28,372 nucleotides of DNA from a virus, in the IMG/VR virus record IMGVR_UViG_3300025732_000205, positions 1 to 28,372 of that record; one strand, 5' to 3'. Every line of letters begins with the position of its first letter. The first letter of the stretch is position 1. Positions 1,166-24,170 of this stretch are shown one piece after another. The position numbers were made by a program, and so were the translations under genes. The notes below the pieces were generated by a model. The model was given only the letters and a program-made list of their open reading frames with translations, did not search any database and had not been told where the DNA came from.

Positions 1166-1390
1166 GTGGGAATTTACATCAGCGATACTTTGATGCGTCG
1201 ATATTTGAACAATTCAATGGCACGGCTTAACGAAATTGTTGAACATGGCGATGTGGATCAACAGTTGAACGCATCTACTCAATTGGCCAATATTATTCTG
1301 AATATCACTCGTCTTGAGCAAGACGAAGAAAATGATGATCGAGAATATTGGCAAAAATTTGATGAAATGGAAGACGAGGAAAACGAATGA
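1166..1390 (+). CDS. Small acidic helical protein (74 aa)
   Basis: Not recognised. The GTG start at 1166 is chosen because AAAGGAGG at 1153-1160 lies five bases upstream; the overlapping ATG at 1164 is out of frame and closes after nine codons. Residues 1-50 look like two helices (RRYLNNSMARLNEIVE and a second with ANIILNITRLEQ). The last 25 residues are almost all Asp, Glu and Asn with aromatic residues interspersed. Such acidic tails occur on small phage chaperones, DNA mimics and inhibitors, but nothing specific can be claimed. It overlaps the ParB-like gene by ATGA (1387-1390), so the two are translationally coupled. Confidence 0.6.
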   Translation: MGIYISDTLMRRYLNNSMARLNEIVEHGDVDQQLNASTQLANIILNITRLEQDEENDDREYWQKFDEMEDEENE

Positions 1391-2160
1391 AGATTCGTGA
1401 CCGAATCAAGGAATTCAAACGGGTCAAAGCGAGCGAGATTCTTCCCAACCCTAAAAACTGGAGAACGCATCCCAAAGCACAAAAAGATGCTTTGAAGGGA
1501 TTGTTGGCTGAGATTGGATTTGCCGGGGCTGTTCTTGCTCGTGAGACCCCTCAAGGCTTGATGCTGATAGACGGTCACCTACGAACTGAAACGATGGTGG
1601 ATGCCGAGATTCCCGTCCTCATTCTGGATGTAGATGAGGCAGAATCAAACAAGATTTTAGCCACATTTGATCCGATCAGCGCAATGGCTGAATCGGATGC
1701 TGCTGCATTGGACACGCTTCTTCGGGATGTTCAAACATCCAATGAGGCTGTCGCTAATATGCTGACGCAAATCGCAGAGGACGCTGGCATACTCGATGGA
1801 AAATCAGACGAGGAAATGTATTCAAGAAAAATTGAAGCGCCGATCTATGAACCAAAAAACGAAAAGCCAGCCATATCTCTTTTAGTAGACAAGACGAAAA
1901 CTAACGAGCTTGTTGCAAGTATTGAGTTTTCAGATGCTCCTCAAGAGATCAAAGATTTTCTAAAATTAGCAGCTCAAAGGCATTTGGTTTTTGATTATGA
2001 AATGATCGCAGATTTCTATGCTCATTCGAGTGCAGATGTGAAGAAGCTGATGGAGGATTCTGCACTCGTCATCATCGACATGAACAAAGCGATCGAAAAC
2101 GGATATGTCAAATTGAGCAAGGAGTTTTCAGAGTATTATGCCGAAGAAAACGAAAGATGA
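1387..2160 (+). CDS. ParB-like (ParB/Srx fold) protein with a distinct C-terminal domain
   Basis: 257 residues. Residues 14-100 follow the ParB N-terminal domain pattern: ASEILPNPKNWRTHP, a helix, GFAGAVLARET, then LIDGHLRTE (the conserved GHxR segment) and IPVLILDVDEAE. In phages such stand-alone domains occur beside DNA methyltransferases and base-modifying enzymes and are thought to act as DNA-binding or CTP/ATP-using accessory or nuclease proteins. After an Ala-rich helical linker, residues about 150-250 form a second block with KPAISLLVD, FDYEMIADFYAHS and SALVIIDMNKAI. I recall similar C-terminal blocks on phage proteins found next to the glycosyltransferase type encoded by the following gene, but this is from memory. 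The gene is coupled upstream (ATGA overlap) and overlaps the glycosyltransferase gene by 23 bases. Confidence 0.75.
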   Translation: MKIRDRIKEFKRVKASEILPNPKNWRTHPKAQKDALKGLLAEIGFAGAVLARETPQGLMLIDGHLRTETMVDAEIPVLILDVDEAESNKILATFDPISAMAESDAAALDTLLRDVQTSNEAVANMLTQIAEDAGILDGKSDEEMYSRKIEAPIYEPKNEKPAISLLVDKTKTNELVASIEFSDAPQEIKDFLKLAAQRHLVFDYEMIADFYAHSSADVKKLMEDSALVIIDMNKAIENGYVKLSKEFSEYYAEENER

Positions 2161-3025
2161 GCAGGACCGTTTCGCCGTATTTATTTTGACTCACGGTAGG
2201 CCAGACAGGGTCTACACAGAGACTACCCTTCGTCAGGCAGGGTATACCGGCGACATTTACTATATTGTTGACAATGAAGACAAGACTGTAGGCGAATACA
2301 AGACAAAGTATGGCGAATTCGTCATCGTTTTTGATAAGAAATGGTTTGCTGATCAGACAGACGAGATGGACAACTTCGACGATCGTCGAACCACGACTCA
2401 CGCAAGAAACGCAATATTCAAAATTGCAGCCGACCTTGGAATCAAATATTTCGTTCAACTGGACGATGACTACACGGCATTTCAATTCAGGACAGATTCG
2501 AGGGGCCAATACCCAAAAAATGTGTTTACGGTCAAATCGACCTTAGACAAAATATTCAATTCCATGCTGGAGTACTTCAAGTCCACCAATGCAAAATCAA
2601 TCGCCTTTTCTCAGGGTGGAGATTTCATCGGTGGAGCGGACGGGGATTTTGCAACTGTTGCAACCCTGAAACGCAAATGCATGAATTCGTTCTTTTGCTC
2701 GACTGATCGCCCGTTCAAATTCATAGGCAGGCAGAACGAGGATGTGAACACCTATGTTATTGGTGGCCATCGGGGTGATTTGTTTTTGACTGTCCCGCTG
2801 GTTTCCCTGACACAAAAGGCAACCCAGTCTAATGAAGGGGCAATCACGGACGCATACAAACAATATGGAACCTATGTCAAATCGTTCTACACAGTAATGC
2901 TTGCGCCGGGGTGCGCCAAGGTATCTATGATGCACACAACCCACAAACGCATTCACCACACGATTAATTGGAAAGCAACCGCCCCGATGATTCTCAGGGA
3001 ATCTCACGCAAGTTGGACTAAGTAG
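2138..3025 (+). CDS. Glycosyltransferase of the TET-associated (DNA base modification) type
   Basis: 295 residues, GT-A-like fold. The start FAVFILTHGRPDRV followed by IYYIVDNEDK is the nucleotide-sugar binding half, and FVQLDDDYTAF carries the acidic metal-binding motif D109-D111. The conserved-looking RRTTTHARNA helix precedes it, and GGADGDF and QNEDVNTYVIG follow in the acceptor half. This arrangement matches the TET-associated glycosyltransferase (TAGT) family, predicted to attach sugars to hydroxymethylated pyrimidines in phage DNA, with relatives in eukaryotic GREB1. No oxygenase, hydroxymethylase or DNA methyltransferase lies in the window, so its substrate base is unknown. It overlaps the ParB-like gene, and its SD is modest (GGAG at 2121-2124 is far; CAGAG is closer). 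It is followed by 116 bases without a gene. Confidence 0.72.
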   Translation: MPKKTKDEQDRFAVFILTHGRPDRVYTETTLRQAGYTGDIYYIVDNEDKTVGEYKTKYGEFVIVFDKKWFADQTDEMDNFDDRRTTTHARNAIFKIAADLGIKYFVQLDDDYTAFQFRTDSRGQYPKNVFTVKSTLDKIFNSMLEYFKSTNAKSIAFSQGGDFIGGADGDFATVATLKRKCMNSFFCSTDRPFKFIGRQNEDVNTYVIGGHRGDLFLTVPLVSLTQKATQSNEGAITDAYKQYGTYVKSFYTVMLAPGCAKVSMMHTTHKRIHHTINWKATAPMILRESHASWTK

Positions 3026-3100: not shown

Positions 3101-3120
3101 TGTAACCAATGAAGGTTACA
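3101..3120. promoter_or_regulatory. Candidate operator: perfect 7-bp inverted repeat
   Basis: TGTAACC at 3101-3107 is repeated in inverse orientation as GGTTACA at 3114-3120, with a six-base spacer. The symmetry and position, just downstream of the possible promoter and 22 bases before the chosen amidoligase start, fit a binding site for a dimeric repressor. The XRE-type protein at 4989-5228 is a candidate partner by proximity only. I did not notice a second copy in the window. Confidence 0.4.
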
Positions 3121-3141
3121 TCAAACAAAGGACGCAGAACA

Positions 3142-4026
3142 ATGAGCAGCTCAGTCAACAACATGACCTTTGGAATTGAAATCGAGTGCTACATTCCTGA
3201 ACAAGCCCTTCATAATGCCGGGGTCCGCATCGGCGGGTATCACAATGGCCTTCAGGTCAACTGCCTGCCTCAAGGCTGGAACGCTCAACGGGATTCTTCA
3301 ATCCGTGCTCCTCTTGGCAAACAAGGAATCGAGATTGTCAGCCCGATCTTGATGGGCGCTGACGGTATCCGTCAGGTCGAATTTGTTCTACAATGGCTCA
3401 GGGATATGGGCGCTGGTTGCAACGAATCTTGTGGAATCCATGTCCATGTTGGTTCTAATGAGGAAACGGCCAAGAAACTGGTTGGTCTAGTCGCCCAGCA
3501 CGAAAAGGCCCTATTCGCTGTCAGCGGTCGCAAGGGCAAGACTCGTGCAAACAACCATTATTGCCGTGGTATCCAAAATGACTCAAATATCAAAGCTGCT
3601 TATGAGAATGGCCGACAGATTCAGGCAGCTGCACAAACCCGCTACCAGCTGCTCAACCTGACCAACCTGACCAGCGGTCGCCGTCCTGCGGTTGAGTTTC
3701 GGGCATTCGCTGCAACTTTCCGCACCGAAGTGGTTCTGGGTTATATCCGGGTCAGCATCGGCCTTGTTCAAGTTGCCCAAACGCTCAAGAAATCAGTCAA
3801 GTTCACCAGCGGTTGGCACACCCCGGCATCTTCCGGCCATGAGCATATCCGCTGCTTGATGCAGCGCCTGTGCTGGGGCTGGTCTAACAGCAAGTCAACC
3901 AAGCGAATCAAGAACGGCGCAGATTTCGGATGGATTCCTTCCTCAACCCAGACTGACCCCAAGGTTGCTCGCAAGGCAATGCTAGAAACAGCCAAGGAAT
4001 TCGATCTGGAAATGGCAGCTGTCTGA
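3142..4026 (+). CDS. Amidoligase (ATP-dependent COOH-NH2 ligase family)
   Basis: 294 residues from the chosen start. The N-terminus NMTFGIEIECYIP carries the acidic metal/ATP-binding residues of the putative amidoligase family (glutamine-synthetase/GCS2-like fold). Further family marks are the EIVSPIL strand, CGIHVHVG (the conserved HxHxG-type segment) and VEFRAF near residue 185. These enzymes join a carboxylate to an amine through an acyl phosphate; in phages they are predicted to make peptide or amide conjugates. An upstream in-frame ATG at 3109 would add 11 residues but has no SD and lies within the inverted repeat; AAAGGA about ten bases before 3142 favours the later start. The gene uses noticeably more AAC, ACC, CTG and AAG codons than most neighbours. 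A terminator-like hairpin follows it. Confidence 0.75.
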   Translation: MSSSVNNMTFGIEIECYIPEQALHNAGVRIGGYHNGLQVNCLPQGWNAQRDSSIRAPLGKQGIEIVSPILMGADGIRQVEFVLQWLRDMGAGCNESCGIHVHVGSNEETAKKLVGLVAQHEKALFAVSGRKGKTRANNHYCRGIQNDSNIKAAYENGRQIQAAAQTRYQLLNLTNLTSGRRPAVEFRAFAATFRTEVVLGYIRVSIGLVQVAQTLKKSVKFTSGWHTPASSGHEHIRCLMQRLCWGWSNSKSTKRIKNGADFGWIPSSTQTDPKVARKAMLETAKEFDLEMAAV

Positions 4027-4039
4027 TTTTGGTTCTTTC

Positions 4040-4060
4040 GGGGGAGCGTGTTGCTCCCCC
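4040..4060 (+). terminator. Terminator-like hairpin after the amidoligase gene
   Basis: GGGGGAGC at 4040-4047 pairs perfectly with GCTCCCCC at 4053-4060 around a five-base loop, 13 bases after the amidoligase stop. The tract after it is only ATTTCT, so termination may be partial. It could reduce expression of the amidotransferase gene relative to the ligase, or stabilise the 3' end of the ligase mRNA. Confidence 0.55.
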
Positions 4061-4092
4061 ATTTCTGAAGGTCGCAGTTTGGAGAATTTCAT

Positions 4093-4854
4093 ATGTGCGG
4101 AGTTTTTGGTTTTGTTTCTTCTCCTGAAAATCGGTTCGGCCCTAATGTTGATGCGATCTGCCAAATCGCACAACATAACGATGCAAGGCGTGGAGGTCAT
4201 GCTTGGGGTGTATCTTGGATTGATTCACAAAACCGCCTTAGATCACATAAACAAGCTGGAAGAATCGATCCGCTGGCGCTTGCCCATATGGTTGAGGACG
4301 CTGTCGCCTTAATCGGTCATTTACGCTTTACGACTCAGGGCAGCGAACTGATAAACGCCAACAATCATCCGCACCCATGCGATGGCGGGTGGATGGTTCA
4401 CAACGGAGTGCTGCCGGAATATTCGGAAATTCGTGATTCGTTTTTTACCGAACCGCTTTCTGAATGCGATTCCGAAATGCTGGCAATTGCGTGGACGGAT
4501 GCCCCATCCGACAACGCAACCAAGCGGGCTGAATGGATGCTCAAAACCTGCCAACCCAACCGATATTTCCCGTTGGCTGTTTTGGGTCTTTGGAAGGATC
4601 GACTCGTTGCGATCCGTCAGGGCAACCCGCTGTGTGTCTACAATAATGCGGATGGGTATTATCTCAGTTCTCTGCCCGTTCCCGGCATCAAGGGTATCGG
4701 TGAATCCAAATCCATTTCCGATGAATCGGTCACGGTTTGGAACAAAGGCAAGAACGGTTGGAAGCGATCGTTCAGCAAGATGGAAAAGCGGACGGATGTC
4801 ACTCGACCGGTTCAGCGTCAAATGTTTCAACCGTCCAAGTCTTTGCCGTGGTAA
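4093..4854 (+). CDS. Class II glutamine amidotransferase (Ntn hydrolase)
   Basis: 253 residues. It begins MCGVFGFV, so removal of Met exposes the catalytic Cys at position 2 that hydrolyses glutamine to ammonia and glutamate. Other class II landmarks follow: an Arg/Gly segment (ARRGGHAWG), IGHLRFTTQGS, NNHPHPC, the oxyanion/binding segment MVHNGVLPEY, and CDSEMLA with its acidic residue. The glutaminase domain takes up about residues 1-215; no synthase, ligase or QueC domain follows, so the ammonia must go to a partner. The amidoligase directly upstream is the obvious candidate. The start is fixed by GGAGA at 4081-4085 and by the need for Cys2. The last 56 bases overlap the minus-strand zinc-ribbon gene. 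The C-terminal 45 residues are basic and probably disordered. Confidence 0.85.
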   Translation: MCGVFGFVSSPENRFGPNVDAICQIAQHNDARRGGHAWGVSWIDSQNRLRSHKQAGRIDPLALAHMVEDAVALIGHLRFTTQGSELINANNHPHPCDGGWMVHNGVLPEYSEIRDSFFTEPLSECDSEMLAIAWTDAPSDNATKRAEWMLKTCQPNRYFPLAVLGLWKDRLVAIRQGNPLCVYNNADGYYLSSLPVPGIKGIGESKSISDESVTVWNKGKNGWKRSFSKMEKRTDVTRPVQRQMFQPSKSLPW

Positions 4855-5270: not shown

Positions 5271-5669
5271 ATGAATGGAGTAAAGGCAAATGCGGATCGA
5301 ATCGCACAAGCCCTGAAAGCCAGCATGGGCAACATTTCTTTGACTGCTCGATCCTTGAAATGTGAACGGGGCTGGCTGTCCAAGAAAATTCATAAGACCC
5401 CGATGCTCAAAGCCATTTTGGATGACCAGCGAGAAGGCAGCATCGACAATGCCGAATCCGCATTGAATCGGGCAGTTGTTCAAGGTGAGGGCTGGGCTGT
5501 TTGTTTTTTGCTGAAAACCATTGGCCGATCCCGTGGCTATTCTGAACGCTGGGAAATGGAGGAATTGAGGAAAGAGTTGGAGGCTTTCAAAAATGAATTG
5601 TATGGAAGAATTGATCGAACTAAGAAATCTAAAGGCAAGATACTACCAAGCGGAAAATCAAACTCCTGA
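5271..5669 (+). CDS. Terminase small subunit-like DNA-binding protein
   Basis: 132 residues. The N-terminal half has a helix-turn-helix arrangement (ADRIAQALKASMGNISLTAR, then a recognition-type helix around CERGWLSKKI). Residues 56-92, with NAESALNRAVVQGEGWAVCF and the LLKTIGRSRGYSE segment, are typical of small proteins encoded directly before the large terminase. The C-terminus is a charged helix followed by a basic Lys/Ser tail, where the large subunit would dock. The small subunit recognises the packaging site and stimulates the large subunit. The 3' end overlaps the large terminase by 77 bases. An ATG at 5267 is out of frame; AAAGGGGGG just upstream serves the ATG at 5271. Confidence 0.7.
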   Translation: MNGVKANADRIAQALKASMGNISLTARSLKCERGWLSKKIHKTPMLKAILDDQREGSIDNAESALNRAVVQGEGWAVCFLLKTIGRSRGYSERWEMEELRKELEAFKNELYGRIDRTKKSKGKILPSGKSNS

Positions 5670-7083
5670 CTGCCCGGTTGAATATGCCGAAGCCCGTGGA
5701 TGGTTGCTGACGGATCAGCAAAAGCAAATTCTTCGGGCTTTGGTCACGCCACCTTACTCTGTATTGGTTCGTGCTGCCCACAATGTGGGGAAAACATTCA
5801 TCACCGCTGTCGCTTGCAGCTGGTTTTATGACCGTTTTGACCCATCCATTTGCCTTGCGACTGCACCTGTAGCTCGTCAGGTGAAAGACCTTTTGTTTCG
5901 TGAATTGAGGCGAATCAAGCACGACGATCCAAATTTCCTTCCAAAGGCGACACGGCTGGAATCTTCACCAGACCATTGGGTGCATGGTTTCACCGCATCC
6001 AAAGGCGATGCGTTCCAAGGAGCGCATATGCCTAACATCATGATTGTGTTCGATGAAGCTGCCGGTGTGGATGTTTCGTTTTGGGATCGTGCTGAAACGA
6101 TGGTTGAACTTGGAAGGCCGGGGCATTATTTTCTGGCGATTTACAACCCATATGACCAATCGTGTCCAGCGTATCTTGCGGAGCAATCGGGCAAGCACAC
6201 AGTCATTGAAATGAGCGCATTGGAACATCCCAATGTGAAGCGTGGCGAAGAAATCATTCCCGGCGCAATCACACGGGCGACAGTATCGGCCAGAGTGTAC
6301 AACGAATGCCGACGAATTGAAGCGGATGAGCAATTGCCACCCACCGCATTTCTTTGGGAAGGAAAATACTACGAAGCGGAGTCACCGCTGTTTGAAACTC
6401 AGATTCTGGGGCGTTGGCCATCCCGCTCCGTTGCTTCGGTTTGGTCAGATCGTGCGCTTGAATTTGTTCAACAACCGATACCATTGAACCCGGATTGGCT
6501 TGTTCAAATTGGGTGCGACCCAGCAAGGTTTGGCGATGATCGCACAGCGATTGCGGTACGCAAAGGAATGTGCGTTATTCACATGGAATCGCATCGTGGG
6601 TGGAGCTTGAATCAAACCGCTGATCGGCTCAAAGAATTGTGCATCCAGTATCAAACCAAAGGACAATCAGCCAAACAGATTCCTGTGCTGATCGACGCTG
6701 CTGGCCTTGGTGCTGGATTGGTGGATATGCGAGGGAAAGCGACAGACCGTTACAATTTTGTGGAAATCAATTCCGCATTCAAATCCCGTTGGGAAGGCGA
6801 TTTCCCTAACCTTCGTTCTGAACTTTGGTTTGCATCCGCTGATTTGGCAGACGCTGAAAGCTTGTCAATCGCCATGCTTCCAGACGAAATTAAGCAGGCG
6901 CTTTTGTTGGAATTAAGGCAACCCATCTTTACATTGGATACGCTACAAAGGCGTATGGTGGAAGCGAAAGCGATGACCAAACGAAGGTTAAAAGCCAGCC
7001 CCGATCTGGCTGATGCGTTTAATCTGGCTTGTTTACTGCGAAACAATGAAGGATGGACTGAACAGGTCACCGGGCGCATTTAG
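5593..7083 (+). CDS. terL: Terminase large subunit (ATPase and nuclease)
   Basis: 496 residues, full length. ATPase domain: adenine-binding Gln motif around TDQQKQILRAL, a variant Walker A VRAAHNVGKT with K67, Walker B IMIVFDEAAG with D154/E155, and the coupling segment YFLAIYNPY. Nuclease domain (RNase H fold): D309 in IGCDPARFGDDRTA, D368 in VLIDAAGLGAG and D474 in SPDLADAFNLA, the three acidic metal ligands. The enzyme pumps DNA into the prohead through the portal and cuts the concatemer. The start at 5593 is chosen because GGAGG at 5579-5583 lies nine bases upstream; the ATG at 5602 is too far from it. The stop is followed by 26 bases and then the portal gene. The packaging type (cos or headful) cannot be told from this. 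Confidence 0.95.
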   Translation: MNCMEELIELRNLKARYYQAENQTPDCPVEYAEARGWLLTDQQKQILRALVTPPYSVLVRAAHNVGKTFITAVACSWFYDRFDPSICLATAPVARQVKDLLFRELRRIKHDDPNFLPKATRLESSPDHWVHGFTASKGDAFQGAHMPNIMIVFDEAAGVDVSFWDRAETMVELGRPGHYFLAIYNPYDQSCPAYLAEQSGKHTVIEMSALEHPNVKRGEEIIPGAITRATVSARVYNECRRIEADEQLPPTAFLWEGKYYEAESPLFETQILGRWPSRSVASVWSDRALEFVQQPIPLNPDWLVQIGCDPARFGDDRTAIAVRKGMCVIHMESHRGWSLNQTADRLKELCIQYQTKGQSAKQIPVLIDAAGLGAGLVDMRGKATDRYNFVEINSAFKSRWEGDFPNLRSELWFASADLADAESLSIAMLPDEIKQALLLELRQPIFTLDTLQRRMVEAKAMTKRRLKASPDLADAFNLACLLRNNEGWTEQVTGRI

Positions 7084-7109
7084 TCATTTATTTAAGTATG
7101 GGGGACATT

Positions 7110-9050
7110 ATGAACGGCAAAAGCGCATCCGGCCCAAAAAAAGTTCATGAGGCGATGGACTTGTATGCGTCCTTGCCTTATTTCCCGTACTTAGATTCCC
7201 GGGATTTATTTGCCGAAGCTGGCCCATACGGCTTCATGGATGGCGTTCCCCAGCAATATTTGACCCGCCGGGATAACCGGATGGCGGGTGAACTGTTGCC
7301 GTTGTACATCAACTGGTGGCAACTCAAAATCATTCGGGATCGTTCCCGGCAAATCTGTCGCAACAATGAATTTGCCATCGCTGCGATCAATGCACATCGG
7401 AATTATGTAGTTGGAACTGGGTTTCAATATTCGGTTCAAGCACGGGTTGACTCAGCGAATAGCGAGTTGATTTCCCGTACTCAGGATTTGGTTGATTTGT
7501 TCATTGAACACAATCGAATGCCTGAGTTGGAAAGCGAAGTCATTTACAGGCTTCATTCCGATGGCGAATGCTTTTTGCGTTCGTTCAAAGGCGAGGACGG
7601 GCTGCTCCGCATTCGGTTCATCGAGCCTGAACTGGTTCGCCCTCCAGCGGATGACACAACGCCAGCAAGCTCATTTGGAATCAAGTGTGCTGACGAAGAC
7701 ATCCACCATGTCGTTGGCTATTGGGTGATTGAAAAGCCGTGGGAAAATTTGACCCCAACGCTTGTTCCAGCCGATCAAATTCTTCATTTGAAGATCAATT
7801 CAGAATCGAACAGCAAGCGTGGTTTGCCCACCGTTTACGCTGTTGAATCAAACCTTCGGGCTGCTGAGGATGTGTTGCAGTCGATGATTGCCGTTGCGAA
7901 AGCACGAAGCAAAATTGCGGTGATCAGAAAGGTGAACGATTCACCGCCCGAAGCGATCAGCGCATTGACTCAAACGGCTGCTGATTACACGGTGACTGAC
8001 CCCGTGCAGAATCGAGCAACAACCATTAACCACATGGGATATGGTTCTATTCTGACCAGCACCGGAAATGTCGAATACGATTTCCCAGCCATGAATATCG
8101 GCGCTGCCGATTTGGTGGAAACGCTTTCGGCTAACCTTCGGGCCATTGCTGCCCGGTTTGGTATTACCGAGACGATGATGTCAACCGATGCTTCAAACAA
8201 CAACTACGCATCTGCGCTTGTAGCTGAAGCTCCAGCGGTCAAAACTTTTGAGCGTATGCAACGCTTGATCGGTCAATCGGTTGGCGAACGGCGCACCCGT
8301 CCTGAGCGTTCGTTGATTTGGCAGCAAATTTCCCATGCTGTGAATATCGGTATGCTGCCCCGTGATGTTTTGGATCAAGTGATCATTCGGGCCAAAGGCC
8401 CACAATTGATCGCACGGGATTATGATCGAGAAGCTCAAACGGCCAAAACCTACATGGATATGGGTCTGTGGTCACCGCAAACAATCACCGCTGAATCGGG
8501 CAAAAATTTTGAAGAAGAACAACGAAACATTGCCAAAGCAAAAGAAGAAATGGCGAGTCGTGATTTTGAATTAAGTCAAAAATACAAAAAAACGGATGGC
8601 GAGCAGCAAACAGAATTGCCTGAATCCATTCAAGAAATCGAATACGCCACCGAAGCGTTGACACCAGACGAATTGGCGCAATTCAACGCCATCCTTGCAA
8701 AAATGCCCAAGCGCAGCAGCGCAGCGCAAAAAGAAAAAGCTGCACAAAAACGAGCGATTGATCGGCTCAAGAAATCCGGCGATCAATTCAGGTCGATCAT
8801 CAAAAATGCTGAACGGATGATTGCCAATGCACCAAAAGGCGTTGAACCAACCGAAGCACGATCCATATTGGCAAACGCCAAATCCAATTTGGCCGGAATC
8901 GAAACCGAATTGAAAAAGCTTCAAGCAAAAGAAACGCAAGAAGCTAGTGACAAACTTTCTGAAAAGATTAAACTCTTGATGGATGAAGGATATGAACAAA
9001 AACAAGCTGTTGCTATCGCTTTGAGTATGCAACGCCGGGGCGAATTGTAA
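7110..9050 (+). CDS. Portal protein (lambda-like family)
   Basis: 646 residues. Residues about 40-450 match the lambda-type portal family: NEFAIAAINAHRNYVVGTGF, DGECFLRSF with RIRFIEPELVRPP, GYWVIEKPW, ADQILHLKINS, and the long helix after GLPTVYAVESNLRAAEDVLQ. The dodecameric portal forms the DNA channel at one head vertex and docks the terminase and connector. The C-terminal third (from about 480) is a Lys/Glu/Ala-rich helical region with a probable coiled coil (ERMIANAPKG through ELKKLQAKE), longer than in lambda gpB; it may line the head interior or act as internal scaffold. The start is set at 7110 because GGGGGA lies about six bases upstream; an in-frame ATG at 7098 has no SD and would add four residues. 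Confidence 0.9.
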   Translation: MNGKSASGPKKVHEAMDLYASLPYFPYLDSRDLFAEAGPYGFMDGVPQQYLTRRDNRMAGELLPLYINWWQLKIIRDRSRQICRNNEFAIAAINAHRNYVVGTGFQYSVQARVDSANSELISRTQDLVDLFIEHNRMPELESEVIYRLHSDGECFLRSFKGEDGLLRIRFIEPELVRPPADDTTPASSFGIKCADEDIHHVVGYWVIEKPWENLTPTLVPADQILHLKINSESNSKRGLPTVYAVESNLRAAEDVLQSMIAVAKARSKIAVIRKVNDSPPEAISALTQTAADYTVTDPVQNRATTINHMGYGSILTSTGNVEYDFPAMNIGAADLVETLSANLRAIAARFGITETMMSTDASNNNYASALVAEAPAVKTFERMQRLIGQSVGERRTRPERSLIWQQISHAVNIGMLPRDVLDQVIIRAKGPQLIARDYDREAQTAKTYMDMGLWSPQTITAESGKNFEEEQRNIAKAKEEMASRDFELSQKYKKTDGEQQTELPESIQEIEYATEALTPDELAQFNAILAKMPKRSSAAQKEKAAQKRAIDRLKKSGDQFRSIIKNAERMIANAPKGVEPTEARSILANAKSNLAGIETELKKLQAKETQEASDKLSEKIKLLMDEGYEQKQAVAIALSMQRRGEL

Positions 9051-9057
9051 GGAATTC

Positions 9058-9564
9058 ATGTCGGTTACCGATGCAGAAATCCTGAAGTATTCGCCTTTGG
9101 TGCATTCATTCGCCAGAAGGTTTGTTGGTAAATTCCGGCGCAAAAGTTCATATCAAGATTTGGTTCAAGCAGGTTGGTTAGGGATGCTTAAGGGATTGAA
9201 AAATTACGATCCATCCCGTGGCATTACGCTGGGAGCATATTCACGGGCTTGGATTTGGGGTTCGATGTATCGGGAGGTTCATGGGCGAAAGAAAAAAACC
9301 ATTGAAATAGAAATTGGGTTGCCACCCAAGCTGTATTCCAATGATCGTCCTTTGACCGATCTAAATGACGCAATAGGGACGCTTTCGCCAACTGAAGCTG
9401 AATTCATACAGATGATTTGGATCGACGGAGAAACCGCAGAGTCAGCGTGTGCCCGTATGGGCATGATTTTTGTCGAACCGCAAGAAGTTTTGAGGCAAGC
9501 CAGAGAGGCTTTAAAGGAGGTGGTCAATTATTACTATGATGAGCCAGACGAAAACGATTCATGA
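9058..9564 (+). CDS. Phage sigma70-family sigma factor
   Basis: 168 residues. Residues 8-80 are sigma region 2: ILKYSPLVHSFARRF, then SSYQDLVQAGWLGMLKGLKN (core-binding helix 2.2) and YDPSRGITLGAYSRAWIWGS (regions 2.3-2.4 with the aromatic melting residues). Residues about 107-156 (LSPTEAEFIQMIWIDGE, then a helix-turn-helix-like end) are a short, diverged region 4. There is no region 1.1 or 3. Such a minimal factor would direct host RNA polymerase to phage late promoters. It has AAGGA five bases before the ATG and overlaps the protease gene by 29 bases, so it is made together with the head proteins, which would give positive feedback of the late operon. Confidence 0.8.
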   Translation: MSVTDAEILKYSPLVHSFARRFVGKFRRKSSYQDLVQAGWLGMLKGLKNYDPSRGITLGAYSRAWIWGSMYREVHGRKKKTIEIEIGLPPKLYSNDRPLTDLNDAIGTLSPTEAEFIQMIWIDGETAESACARMGMIFVEPQEVLRQAREALKEVVNYYYDEPDENDS

Positions 9565-22609: not shown

Positions 22610-23278
22610 ATGCTTGGATTTTTGCTGCTTGTTTTTAGTCAGGATTTGAAACTGCCAACGGAAATCCGTGGCGAGCCAAATCAATTCATCACTATCATCG
22701 CCGAAACTTCCGGCGAAATAGTTCGGTTCGTTTCTGTCGATCCGGGTTTATCCATCTTCCCAGCTGAATTGTTGGCAAACAAAAAGGCGACTGTCGTTAC
22801 AGGCCCCGCTGGTCGTTACAGAATCATCGCTTATACGGCGATCGGCAATAAGCCAAGTGATCCATCAACCGTGACAGTAATCATCGGGAATGCACCAAAT
22901 CCTTCGCCTAATCCTATTGTTCCCCCAAAACCTGACCCGCTCGCTGCTCTTGGGCAAACGCTTGCTGGGATTTATGGCGGTCTTCAAGAACCGGGCATGA
23001 ATCAGCAAGTTAAAGTTTTGGCATCCATTTATCGTCAAGGCGCAAGCGAATTACCTCGCAATTCAACTGTTGCGGATGTTTACAACGGGCTTCAAGCGCA
23101 AGCAATTGCCAAGTTAAACCCGCAATCCATCGTGGAAATTCGCAGGGCCATTGCTGCTGACATGAAACAAAGATTTGGCAGTCGTGGCGACATGGTGTTA
23201 AGCGAAGAATTAAGGACTTCGCTATCCGATTATTTCACCAGTTTATCAGCCATTTTGGAGGGTTTGGCCAATGGATGA
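22610..23278 (+). CDS. Secreted-like protein with Ig-type domain and Pro-rich linker
   Basis: 222 residues from ATG 22610, eight bases after GGGGAGG; the ATG at 22604 overlaps the previous stop but is too close to that SD. It begins with a short hydrophobic stretch MLGFLLLVFSQ lacking positive charge, a weak signal or anchor. Residues 15-95 form strands (EIVRFVSVDPGLSIFPAELL, GRYRIIAYTAIGN, STVTVIIGN) with an Ig-like look. A proline-rich linker NPSPNPIVPPKPDP follows, and then a helical C-terminus (residues 110-222). No family is recognised. Its position before a cysteine protease and a holin-like gene hints at lysis or cell-surface work, perhaps spanin-like, but this is inference. Confidence 0.5.
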   Translation: MLGFLLLVFSQDLKLPTEIRGEPNQFITIIAETSGEIVRFVSVDPGLSIFPAELLANKKATVVTGPAGRYRIIAYTAIGNKPSDPSTVTVIIGNAPNPSPNPIVPPKPDPLAALGQTLAGIYGGLQEPGMNQQVKVLASIYRQGASELPRNSTVADVYNGLQAQAIAKLNPQSIVEIRRAIAADMKQRFGSRGDMVLSEELRTSLSDYFTSLSAILEGLANG

Positions 23279-24170
23279 ATTAACCGAATACGCTCAGGGA
23301 TGGGTGGACGATCCTGAAGCGGTGGCGCAAATTGCTTCCGATTTGGAATATCAATCATTTGGTGACACGCCAGCTGGTTCAATTCCAGAAGCTGAATTGC
23401 CGAAAAATGTTTTCCTTTGGGATGCAGCCAAAAAGGTTCTTGGGAAATTGCTTCCACCAAGGAACCAAGGCCGGGTAGGCAGTTGTGTAAGCTTCGGCAC
23501 AAACCGAGCCATCGAATACACCATGTTGAGCGAAATCGCCCGTGGCGACCAAGAAGAATATCGAGACATAGCAGAAGAAATAACTTACGGTGGCAGTCGT
23601 GTCGAAATAGGTGGTGGTCGCCTTCGTGGGGATGGTTCCATCGGCGCATGGGCTGCAAAATTCGTGAATCAATGGGGCGTGATTGATCGTGCGGTTTACG
23701 GTCAATTTGATTTGCGCCAATACGATGAAAAACGCTGTCGTGAATTCGGTGCGACTGGCGTTCCGTCTGAATTGGAATCCGTTGCCAAACGGTATCCGGT
23801 CAAAACCACAACGCTGGTTAAAACAATTGAAGAAGCGAAGAAAGCATTGGCCCAAGGCTACGGCATTGCGGTTTGTTCTTCGCAAGGATTTTCGATGTCA
23901 AGAAACGCATCGGGAATCGCTCAACCATCCGGCACTTGGAACCATTGTATGTGCGTTGCTGGATATGCGGACATATCTGGCAAATCGTATTTTCGCATAG
24001 ATAATTCATGGGGCGCATCGGCGCATACTGGCCCAGTTGGCCCGGGTGATCCCGGCCCCGAAGGATTTTATTGTGACGAAATCACATTTTCCAAGATGCT
24101 CAAGATGAATGACACTTGGGCGTTTTCATCCGTGCAAGGATTTCCAGCGAGGGATTTTTGGTTTGTTTGA
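23271..24170 (+). CDS. Papain-like cysteine protease (C1-type fold)
   Basis: 299 residues. The catalytic core is complete: Gln66 and Cys72 in PRNQGRVGSCVSFGTNRAI, His225 in WNHCMCVAGY and Asn245 in FRIDNSWGAS, spaced as in papain-family peptidases. There is no obvious signal peptide and only a short, acidic N-terminal part (1-45) instead of a full propeptide. It overlaps the previous gene by eight bases (ATGG within the coding end). In a tailed phage at this place it could cut virion proteins, act at the host surface on entry, or help lysis of a cell with a protein-rich wall. No amidase or lysozyme motif is present. Confidence 0.8.
   Translation: MDELTEYAQGWVDDPEAVAQIASDLEYQSFGDTPAGSIPEAELPKNVFLWDAAKKVLGKLLPPRNQGRVGSCVSFGTNRAIEYTMLSEIARGDQEEYRDIAEEITYGGSRVEIGGGRLRGDGSIGAWAAKFVNQWGVIDRAVYGQFDLRQYDEKRCREFGATGVPSELESVAKRYPVKTTTLVKTIEEAKKALAQGYGIAVCSSQGFSMSRNASGIAQPSGTWNHCMCVAGYADISGKSYFRIDNSWGASAHTGPVGPGDPGPEGFYCDEITFSKMLKMNDTWAFSSVQGFPARDFWFV

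Follow-up and report, generated by a model that had tools for sequence, protein, structure and literature searches.

A candidate ParB-tethered glycosylation module of phages that pairs a TAGT-family glycosyltransferase with a conserved acidic domain

The window analyzed here, the complete IMG/VR record IMGVR_UViG_3300025732_000205 (28,372 bases, a fragment of a virus genome), carries two overlapping genes for a ParB-fold protein and a TAGT-family glycosyltransferase. We propose with moderate confidence that the pair forms a self-contained unit for DNA glycosylation, tethered by ParB, where a conserved C-terminal domain of the ParB-fold protein (CTD) would replace the oxygenase as obligate partner and DNA would be the substrate. 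The evidence consists of the genes and their conservation, the mutual exclusion of CTD and TET, the swapping of effectors at one genomic slot, predicted folds and catalytic motifs. PMC13216743 (2026) leaves open the role of many phage TAGTs that lack known glucosyltransferases. A large clade of such TAGTs now gains a near-obligate partner domain, found where the oxygenase is absent, and a "TAGT of unknown substrate" becomes a system of two genes, carried by cultured phages (c5, HHTV-2, NTR1, jlb1) and, at a coverage of at least 80%, by 887 of the 5,426 complete E. coli genomes. Were DNA glycosylated without prior hydroxylation, this would be a new pathway to modified DNA; with another substrate, it would become clear what this widespread phage enzyme really acts on.

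The gene pair and its predicted folds

Under longest-ORF calling, which applies to all gene calls in this work, the plus-strand ORF at 1387-2160 encodes the ParB-fold protein of 257 residues and the ORF at 2138-3025 on the same strand the glycosyltransferase of 295 residues. As the initial annotation had stated, the two share exactly 23 bases (2138-2160), and an overlap is kept in most relatives, usually of 4-44 bases as called. The module is located just upstream of the packaging genes, represented on the plus strand by a small-terminase-like gene (5271-5669), a type that directly follows the TAGT (position +1) in many relatives, and by the terminase large subunit (5593-7083; phrog_2, E 1e-22). 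A large-terminase gene close to the TAGT was found at 72 loci, mostly two or three genes downstream.

The product of 2138-3025 matches the TAGT profile PF20691 with an E-value of 2.5e-34 and 119.5 bits, against a curated cut-off of 27.5, and phrog_842 with an E-value of 4e-66, which bears out the family originally assigned to it. Its AlphaFold2 model is GT-A-like (pTM 0.82), with less confident stretches at residues ~120-130, ~160-180 and in parts of the last 65, and the Foldseek neighbors are GT-A enzymes, for example LARGE1, ColGalT1, GpgS and SunS, in line with the GT-A-type fold expected for this gene. The predicted FILTHGRPDR start and DDD motif are both present. The DDD triplet, a metal and nucleotide-sugar motif at D109-D111 (2462-2470), is 88-100% conserved in both TAGT clades. 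D202 of NEDVNTY (2741-2743) is 100% conserved in both, and we take it to be a candidate for the catalytic base, assuming that its ED motif plays the role known from GT-A families, as in GT2-like enzymes. The protein is thus a PF20691 member in its profile score, GT-A fold, acidic metal motif and candidate catalytic aspartate. While DDD and D202 are common to both groups, the CTD-linked TAGTs are characterized by K67, D75, G165, N200 and the GTYxKSF region. As the GT-A fold is common to many glycan enzymes, the protein might also be an O-antigen or teichoic acid glycosyltransferase serving seroconversion. We consider this hardly credible given the PF20691 score far above the cut-off, the coupling to ParB and CTD, packaging genes as the only other conserved neighbors, and the slot swaps with TET, Mom and methyltransferases described below.

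Residues 1-137 of the upstream protein (1387-1797, plus strand) are predicted to adopt a ParB/Srx CTPase-type fold, as judged from the AlphaFold2 model, Foldseek and phrog_620/498. The best PDB match of this ParB-N model is the ParB:CDP complex 6sdk (Foldseek, E 2e-6), and PHROGs likewise place the protein among ParB-like families (phrog_620, 5e-18). The GHxR core noted in the initial annotation is present as IDGHLR, with GHLR at residues 63-66 within the ParB/sulfiredoxin-type fold of the predicted structure. The Pfam profile ParB_N (PF02195) does not match the window protein but does match its relatives L125 and L031, the former above the cut-off; fold comparison is more sensitive than this profile for ParB assignment. 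No ParA family was found among the scanned genes of the genome, and the CTD occupies the place of the canonical ParB C-terminus.

The CTD and its distribution

The CTD comprises approximately residues 141-257 (1807-2160, plus strand), with an acidic helical core at about residues 163-243, in which pLDDT values are mostly above 90 over residues ~163-238. It is separated from ParB-N by a disordered linker, with pLDDT below 50 at residues 136-149 and higher values beyond. The linker carries, at low model confidence, a conserved linear motif, Y-x2-K-[IV]-x2-P-x-Y-E-P-x4-P (residues 145-161, 1819-1869, plus strand), in which Y145, P152, Y154, E155 and P161 are near-invariant, as is S225 within the CTD. 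A second conserved stretch reads FL..AA.RH.VFNY.KIADYYAH....Q.LME.SALVIIDF.KAIENG in the alignment of relatives. Conservation in this alignment is strong in the CTD, and the ParB-N part differs from locus to locus, so that ParB-N appears to be an interchangeable module.

Searches of the CTD against Pfam and PDB returned no family above threshold. The best PDB sequence match (E 0.008) is to an apparently unrelated adhesin, and we rejected an assignment of function from PDB sequence or fold for want of a convincing match. A BFVD fold search gave ParB-like matches and relatives only. As a named domain, the CTD is found neither in Pfam, PHROGs (where it is lumped into phrog_620) and PDB nor in the literature examined. 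The domain is acidic, with a median charge of -10 and a negative charge in 99% of 215 sequences, and the TAGT is basic, with a median charge of +7. These charges fit a protein-docking rather than a DNA-binding role of the CTD, and their complementarity is weakly suggestive of CTD-TAGT binding. A small acidic gene that overlaps the gene of a basic enzyme and is carried by prophages is also reminiscent of a host-directed or defense module (toxin/antitoxin-like or for superinfection exclusion), in which the CTD would neutralize or aim the TAGT. We regard such a function as very unlikely, as PADLOC gave no match of note, the genes are ordered inside the packaging region, and the TAGT is catalytically akin to DNA-modifying TAGTs.

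The association of the two genes is strikingly constant. We kept the best 80 loci per scan, and the relatives fall into clades. A CTD gene accompanies 83 of the 86 TAGT loci of the first scan, nearly always directly upstream and overlapping the TAGT, hence the pairing is not due to chance. Across 183 distinct relatives from bacterial phages, prophages and an archaeal virus, the CTD lies beside the TAGT in 180. A scan of IMG/VR with the CTD alone recovered at least 563 relatives, and each of the 77 loci newly kept has a TAGT directly after the CTD (the distance rule identifies 76, and L208, whose TAGT ORF start was called too early, was judged by eye). Bacterial genomes show the CTD at 38 of 39 TAGT loci. 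The 50,697 phage records contain 28 with a CTD, every one of which also encodes a TAGT, and the four TAGT records without a CTD are those of Ld17/LL-Ku, where the TAGT match is in pieces. Hosts of the pair include Bacteroidota, Firmicutes, Proteobacteria, Verrucomicrobia, Spirochaetes and others, in addition to the host of the Haloarcula virus HHTV-2.

The ParB-like part is less constant. The CTD gene stands alone in 57 of 162 distinct loci and has an N-terminal extension of at least 85 residues in 101, of which 80 display a GHxR-like core. The coupling of the TAGT to a ParB-like gene, as initially annotated, thus recurs, but the conserved partner is the CTD rather than ParB as such. Iyer and colleagues reportedly linked TAGT with ParB in 2013, and we make no claim of priority for this link.

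Two unrelated loci carry a class I methyltransferase gene between CTD and TAGT (L014:4334-5185 and L105:5883-6719), whose product could methylate the attached sugar or the base.

The near-invariant linker tyrosines and S225, the proximity of the terminase and the presence of GT-A protein glycosyltransferases among the structural neighbors would be compatible with a protein target: the module might glycosylate the CTD itself, through Tyr, Ser or Thr of the linker, or ParB or the terminase, and so regulate replication or packaging. This is improbable in our view. In a 191-kb Vibrio phage the CTD-TAGT pair adjoins replication genes, away from the terminase, and the enzymes that replace the pair at the same slot are of DNA-modification type.

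In the E. coli case examined, the module is part of a Rac-type prophage, with trkG ahead of it and the terminase genes after it. YnaK of MG1655 (87 residues; L327:5878-6141) is an N-terminal ParB-N stub of the same ParB-CTD protein. K-12 has lost CTD, TAGT and terminase by a deletion of ~11.6 kb relative to the intact prophage, and other E. coli keep all three. The PGAP annotation of strain M18 has ynaK as a partial pseudogene lacking its C-terminus though the ORF is complete (263 residues), apparently an annotation artefact. A literature search on ynaK and on DNA modification of c5 and HHTV-2 yielded nothing useful.

Exclusion of TET/JBP and swaps at the ParB-N slot

The distribution of CTD and TET reveals a clear complementarity. 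In the 183 distinct genes of the window's TAGT group, no TET was detected within 2.5 kb. In a divergent TAGT group found through locus L276, TET is adjacent in 19 of 26 distinct genes and the CTD in none. Clustering of the TAGTs at 60% identity gives 69 clusters with CTD only, 9 with TET only, 8 with neither and none with both; the corresponding Fisher p of 5e-8 overstates independence, as the CTD- and TET-linked TAGTs are separate clades. The window's group is monophyletic with a long stem, so that the counts are not independent and the exclusion is best described as complementarity at the level of clades, which may reflect one or few events. TAGTs with neither partner also exist (L279, L250, L252, L310, L313, L324 and T6). 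The presence of the CTD where the usual oxygenase is absent suggests an alternative route by which sugars are attached to DNA. An association with Tet/JBP is absent from the window clade; the PF20691 profile does not require it, and T6 lacks it too.

Known systems resemble the window module only in part. TET/JBP-TAGT operons (PF12851 and PF20691) share with it the TAGT family, the DDD motif and D202, and L276 also the same ParB slot. They differ in that the window clade has the CTD instead of TET, while TET-linked TAGTs never occur with a CTD. The T6 beta-glucosyl-HMC-alpha-glucosyltransferase (ggt, PF20691) passes the TAGT profile just as the window protein does, yet pairwise BLAST reveals no significant similarity between the two. 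In T6, a dCMP hydroxymethylase, which supplies the hydroxymethylcytosine, is encoded next door and the alpha-glucosyltransferase elsewhere, and there is no CTD; the T-even hydroxymethylcytosine system needs this hydroxymethylase, and the window genome has none. ParB-N fused to an N6/N4 DNA methyltransferase (phrog_498) represents the same ParB-N subfamily at the same place upstream of the terminase. There the effector is joined in cis, whereas in the window module the CTD is in cis and the TAGT in trans. Phage fusions of ParB-N, a known NTP-binding module, with DNA methyltransferases are described in PMC12704722, whose main text makes no mention of glycosyltransferases. The consulted sections of PMC13216743 report solitary TAGTs in 288 of 753 phage genomes, with neither alpha- nor beta-glucosyltransferase; like the window TAGT, they have no known glucosyltransferases alongside, and they probably include the window's group. 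No partner domain is reported in these sections; the CTD, and the finding that it excludes TET, are our addition.

A sibling phage, L085, offers a more direct view of the exchange. Its flanks are 78-86% identical to the window in DNA and its ParB-N is 85% identical, but the C-terminus is different. The ParB-N is followed by a Tet_JBP protein (PF12851, 1.6e-12), which is absent from the window module, and then by an FkbM methyltransferase, before the same amidoligase and glutamine amidotransferase genes resume. Recombination at the junction of ParB and CTD, in which CTD-TAGT moved as one block, would account most simply for this arrangement.

The genes that resume in L085 are located at 3109-4854 in the window, an Amidoligase_2 gene (PF12224) and, behind it, one resembling class II glutamine amidotransferases. 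A part for them in the sugar pathway is unlikely: they are retained in L085 despite the change from CTD-TAGT to TET-FkbM, an amidoligase also accompanies the ABC-GNAT type (L219), and other CTD-TAGT loci lack both genes. They probably belong to an independent peptide- or amide-forming pathway.

Scanning with the ParB-N domain alone, hence with no selection for any effector, allowed a census of the slot. DNA-modification-type effectors occupy it in 60 of 63 distinct loci: a fused N6/N4 methyltransferase in 30 (identified from length and a [DSN]PP[YFW]/CPPY motif, two being checked with Pfam), a C5 methyltransferase in 7, Mom in 5, ABC-ATPase/GNAT in 5 (counted as DNA-modifying by analogy with Mom only), TET in 4, TET with TAGT in 1 (L276), CTD with TAGT in 5 and TAGT alone in 3; the other 3 have no recognized effector. 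As the alternatives at the slot are almost all of DNA-modification type, guilt by replacement points to DNA as the substrate. The DNA-modification role initially proposed for the pair is therefore supported by same-slot swaps with TET/JBP, Mom and DNA methyltransferases.

Several individual loci deserve mention. In L276 (331-2616), ParB-N, Tet_JBP and TAGT follow in a row, the classical TET-TAGT order in the same slot without a CTD. In L219, L231, L249, L262 and L295 (e.g., L295:896-2080), ParB-N is followed by an ABC-ATPase/GNAT fusion (phrog_11143), whose position makes it a candidate for a new DNA-modifying enzyme akin to Mom. One of the three loci with no recognized effector, L270, encodes behind ParB-N a protein (6593-7558) similar to phrog_887 (queuine tRNA-ribosyltransferase) with no Pfam match, possibly a DpdA-like 7-deazaguanine DNA modifier. 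The TET proteins of L085 and L296 match phrog_6059, labeled queuine tRNA-ribosyltransferase, though Pfam finds Tet_JBP; the label looks wrong.

Search for a base hydroxylase and proposed mechanism

The initial annotation had noted that the usual oxygenase or hydroxymethyltransferase is absent, and had suggested that it lies elsewhere in the genome or that the pair uses another base or substrate. The window can be extended by L002 (99.99% identical over 11 kb), which adds 4.9 kb to its left, and by L084 (99.98% identical to L002), which adds a further 8.5 kb and whose far end falls within a diverged version of the last gene in the window. A related contig of 41.9 kb has its genes in the same order over this junction. 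The phage genome, as pieced together from different strains, is thus about 41.8 kb long. Pfam scans of this reconstruction found no oxygenase, thymidylate-synthase-like hydroxymethylase or DNA methyltransferase, so that the absence holds for nearly the whole genome, and we rejected the idea of a recognizable enzyme of this kind encoded outside the window.

The relatives tested, whose genomes are complete or nearly so, display the same picture. Searches for TET, in which L085 served as positive control, were negative for 31 virus records and for c5, jlb1, HHTV-2, NTR1, pv27 and an E. coli phage. PF00303, the superfamily of thymidylate synthase and dCMP hydroxymethylase, was not found in 20 of 21 records, the exception being pv27, where it is annotated as an ordinary thymidylate synthase beside dihydrofolate reductase. 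The C5 methyltransferase family PF00145 was not found in any of the 9 relatives tested. Of the two options offered initially, an oxygenase elsewhere finds less support: TET never occurs near this clade's TAGT and the CTD nearly always does, which favors another base or substrate.

It is nevertheless conceivable that the TAGT needs a hydroxylated base from an unrecognized phage enzyme or from the host, the CTD being only a docking or regulatory subunit. Characterized TAGTs act on glucosylated hydroxymethylcytosine (T6) or adjoin TET, and many genes of these phages lack a Pfam family, which leaves room for a hydroxylase of a novel family. However, no relative tested has a TET or dCMP hydroxymethylase, and no conserved extra gene was seen to accompany CTD-TAGT other than terminase and packaging genes. 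A common supply by the host is unlikely as well, since some of the genomes are small (c5, 31.8 kb) and the pair extends across many bacterial phyla and to an archaeal virus. We therefore judge a need for hydroxylated bases unlikely, though it is the alternative that we take most seriously.

In the ParB-tethered module that we favor, the TAGT, with its GT-A fold, DDD motif and D202, would move a sugar from a nucleotide-sugar onto phage DNA. The CTD would bind the basic TAGT and be needed for its activity or its choice of acceptor, filling the place of the Tet/JBP oxygenase in classical TET-TAGT systems. In the other TAGT clade, TET can provide a hydroxylated acceptor. As nothing recognizable does so here, the simplest model is that the CTD lets the TAGT use another acceptor, and the lack of a recognizable base-hydroxylating enzyme would make a canonical DNA base, or else another group in DNA, the most likely candidate. 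When fused, ParB-N may serve as an NTP-gated DNA-loading or targeting module, one that the other modification enzymes at this position ahead of the terminase, namely methyltransferases, Mom and TET, appear to use as well. The modified DNA, once packaged, would be shielded from host restriction. A more specific and more tentative version, which we put forward as a possibility, is an oxygenase-free two-protein enzyme that attaches the sugar straight onto a canonical DNA base, with the CTD as obligate subunit and ParB-N as exchangeable, NTP-controlled targeting part. If true, it would amount to a new base chemistry, shared by an archaeal virus and by phages from many phyla.

Two further features of this small phage lie outside the module. 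It carries two sigma-factor-like genes, one in the window (9058-9564) and one in the extension (L002:2737-3285), one of them with a clear match to Sigma70 region 2; they are a possible phage-encoded transcription switch. A papain-family cysteine protease gene (PF00112) is found at 23271-24170 of the window, within the tail-gene region.
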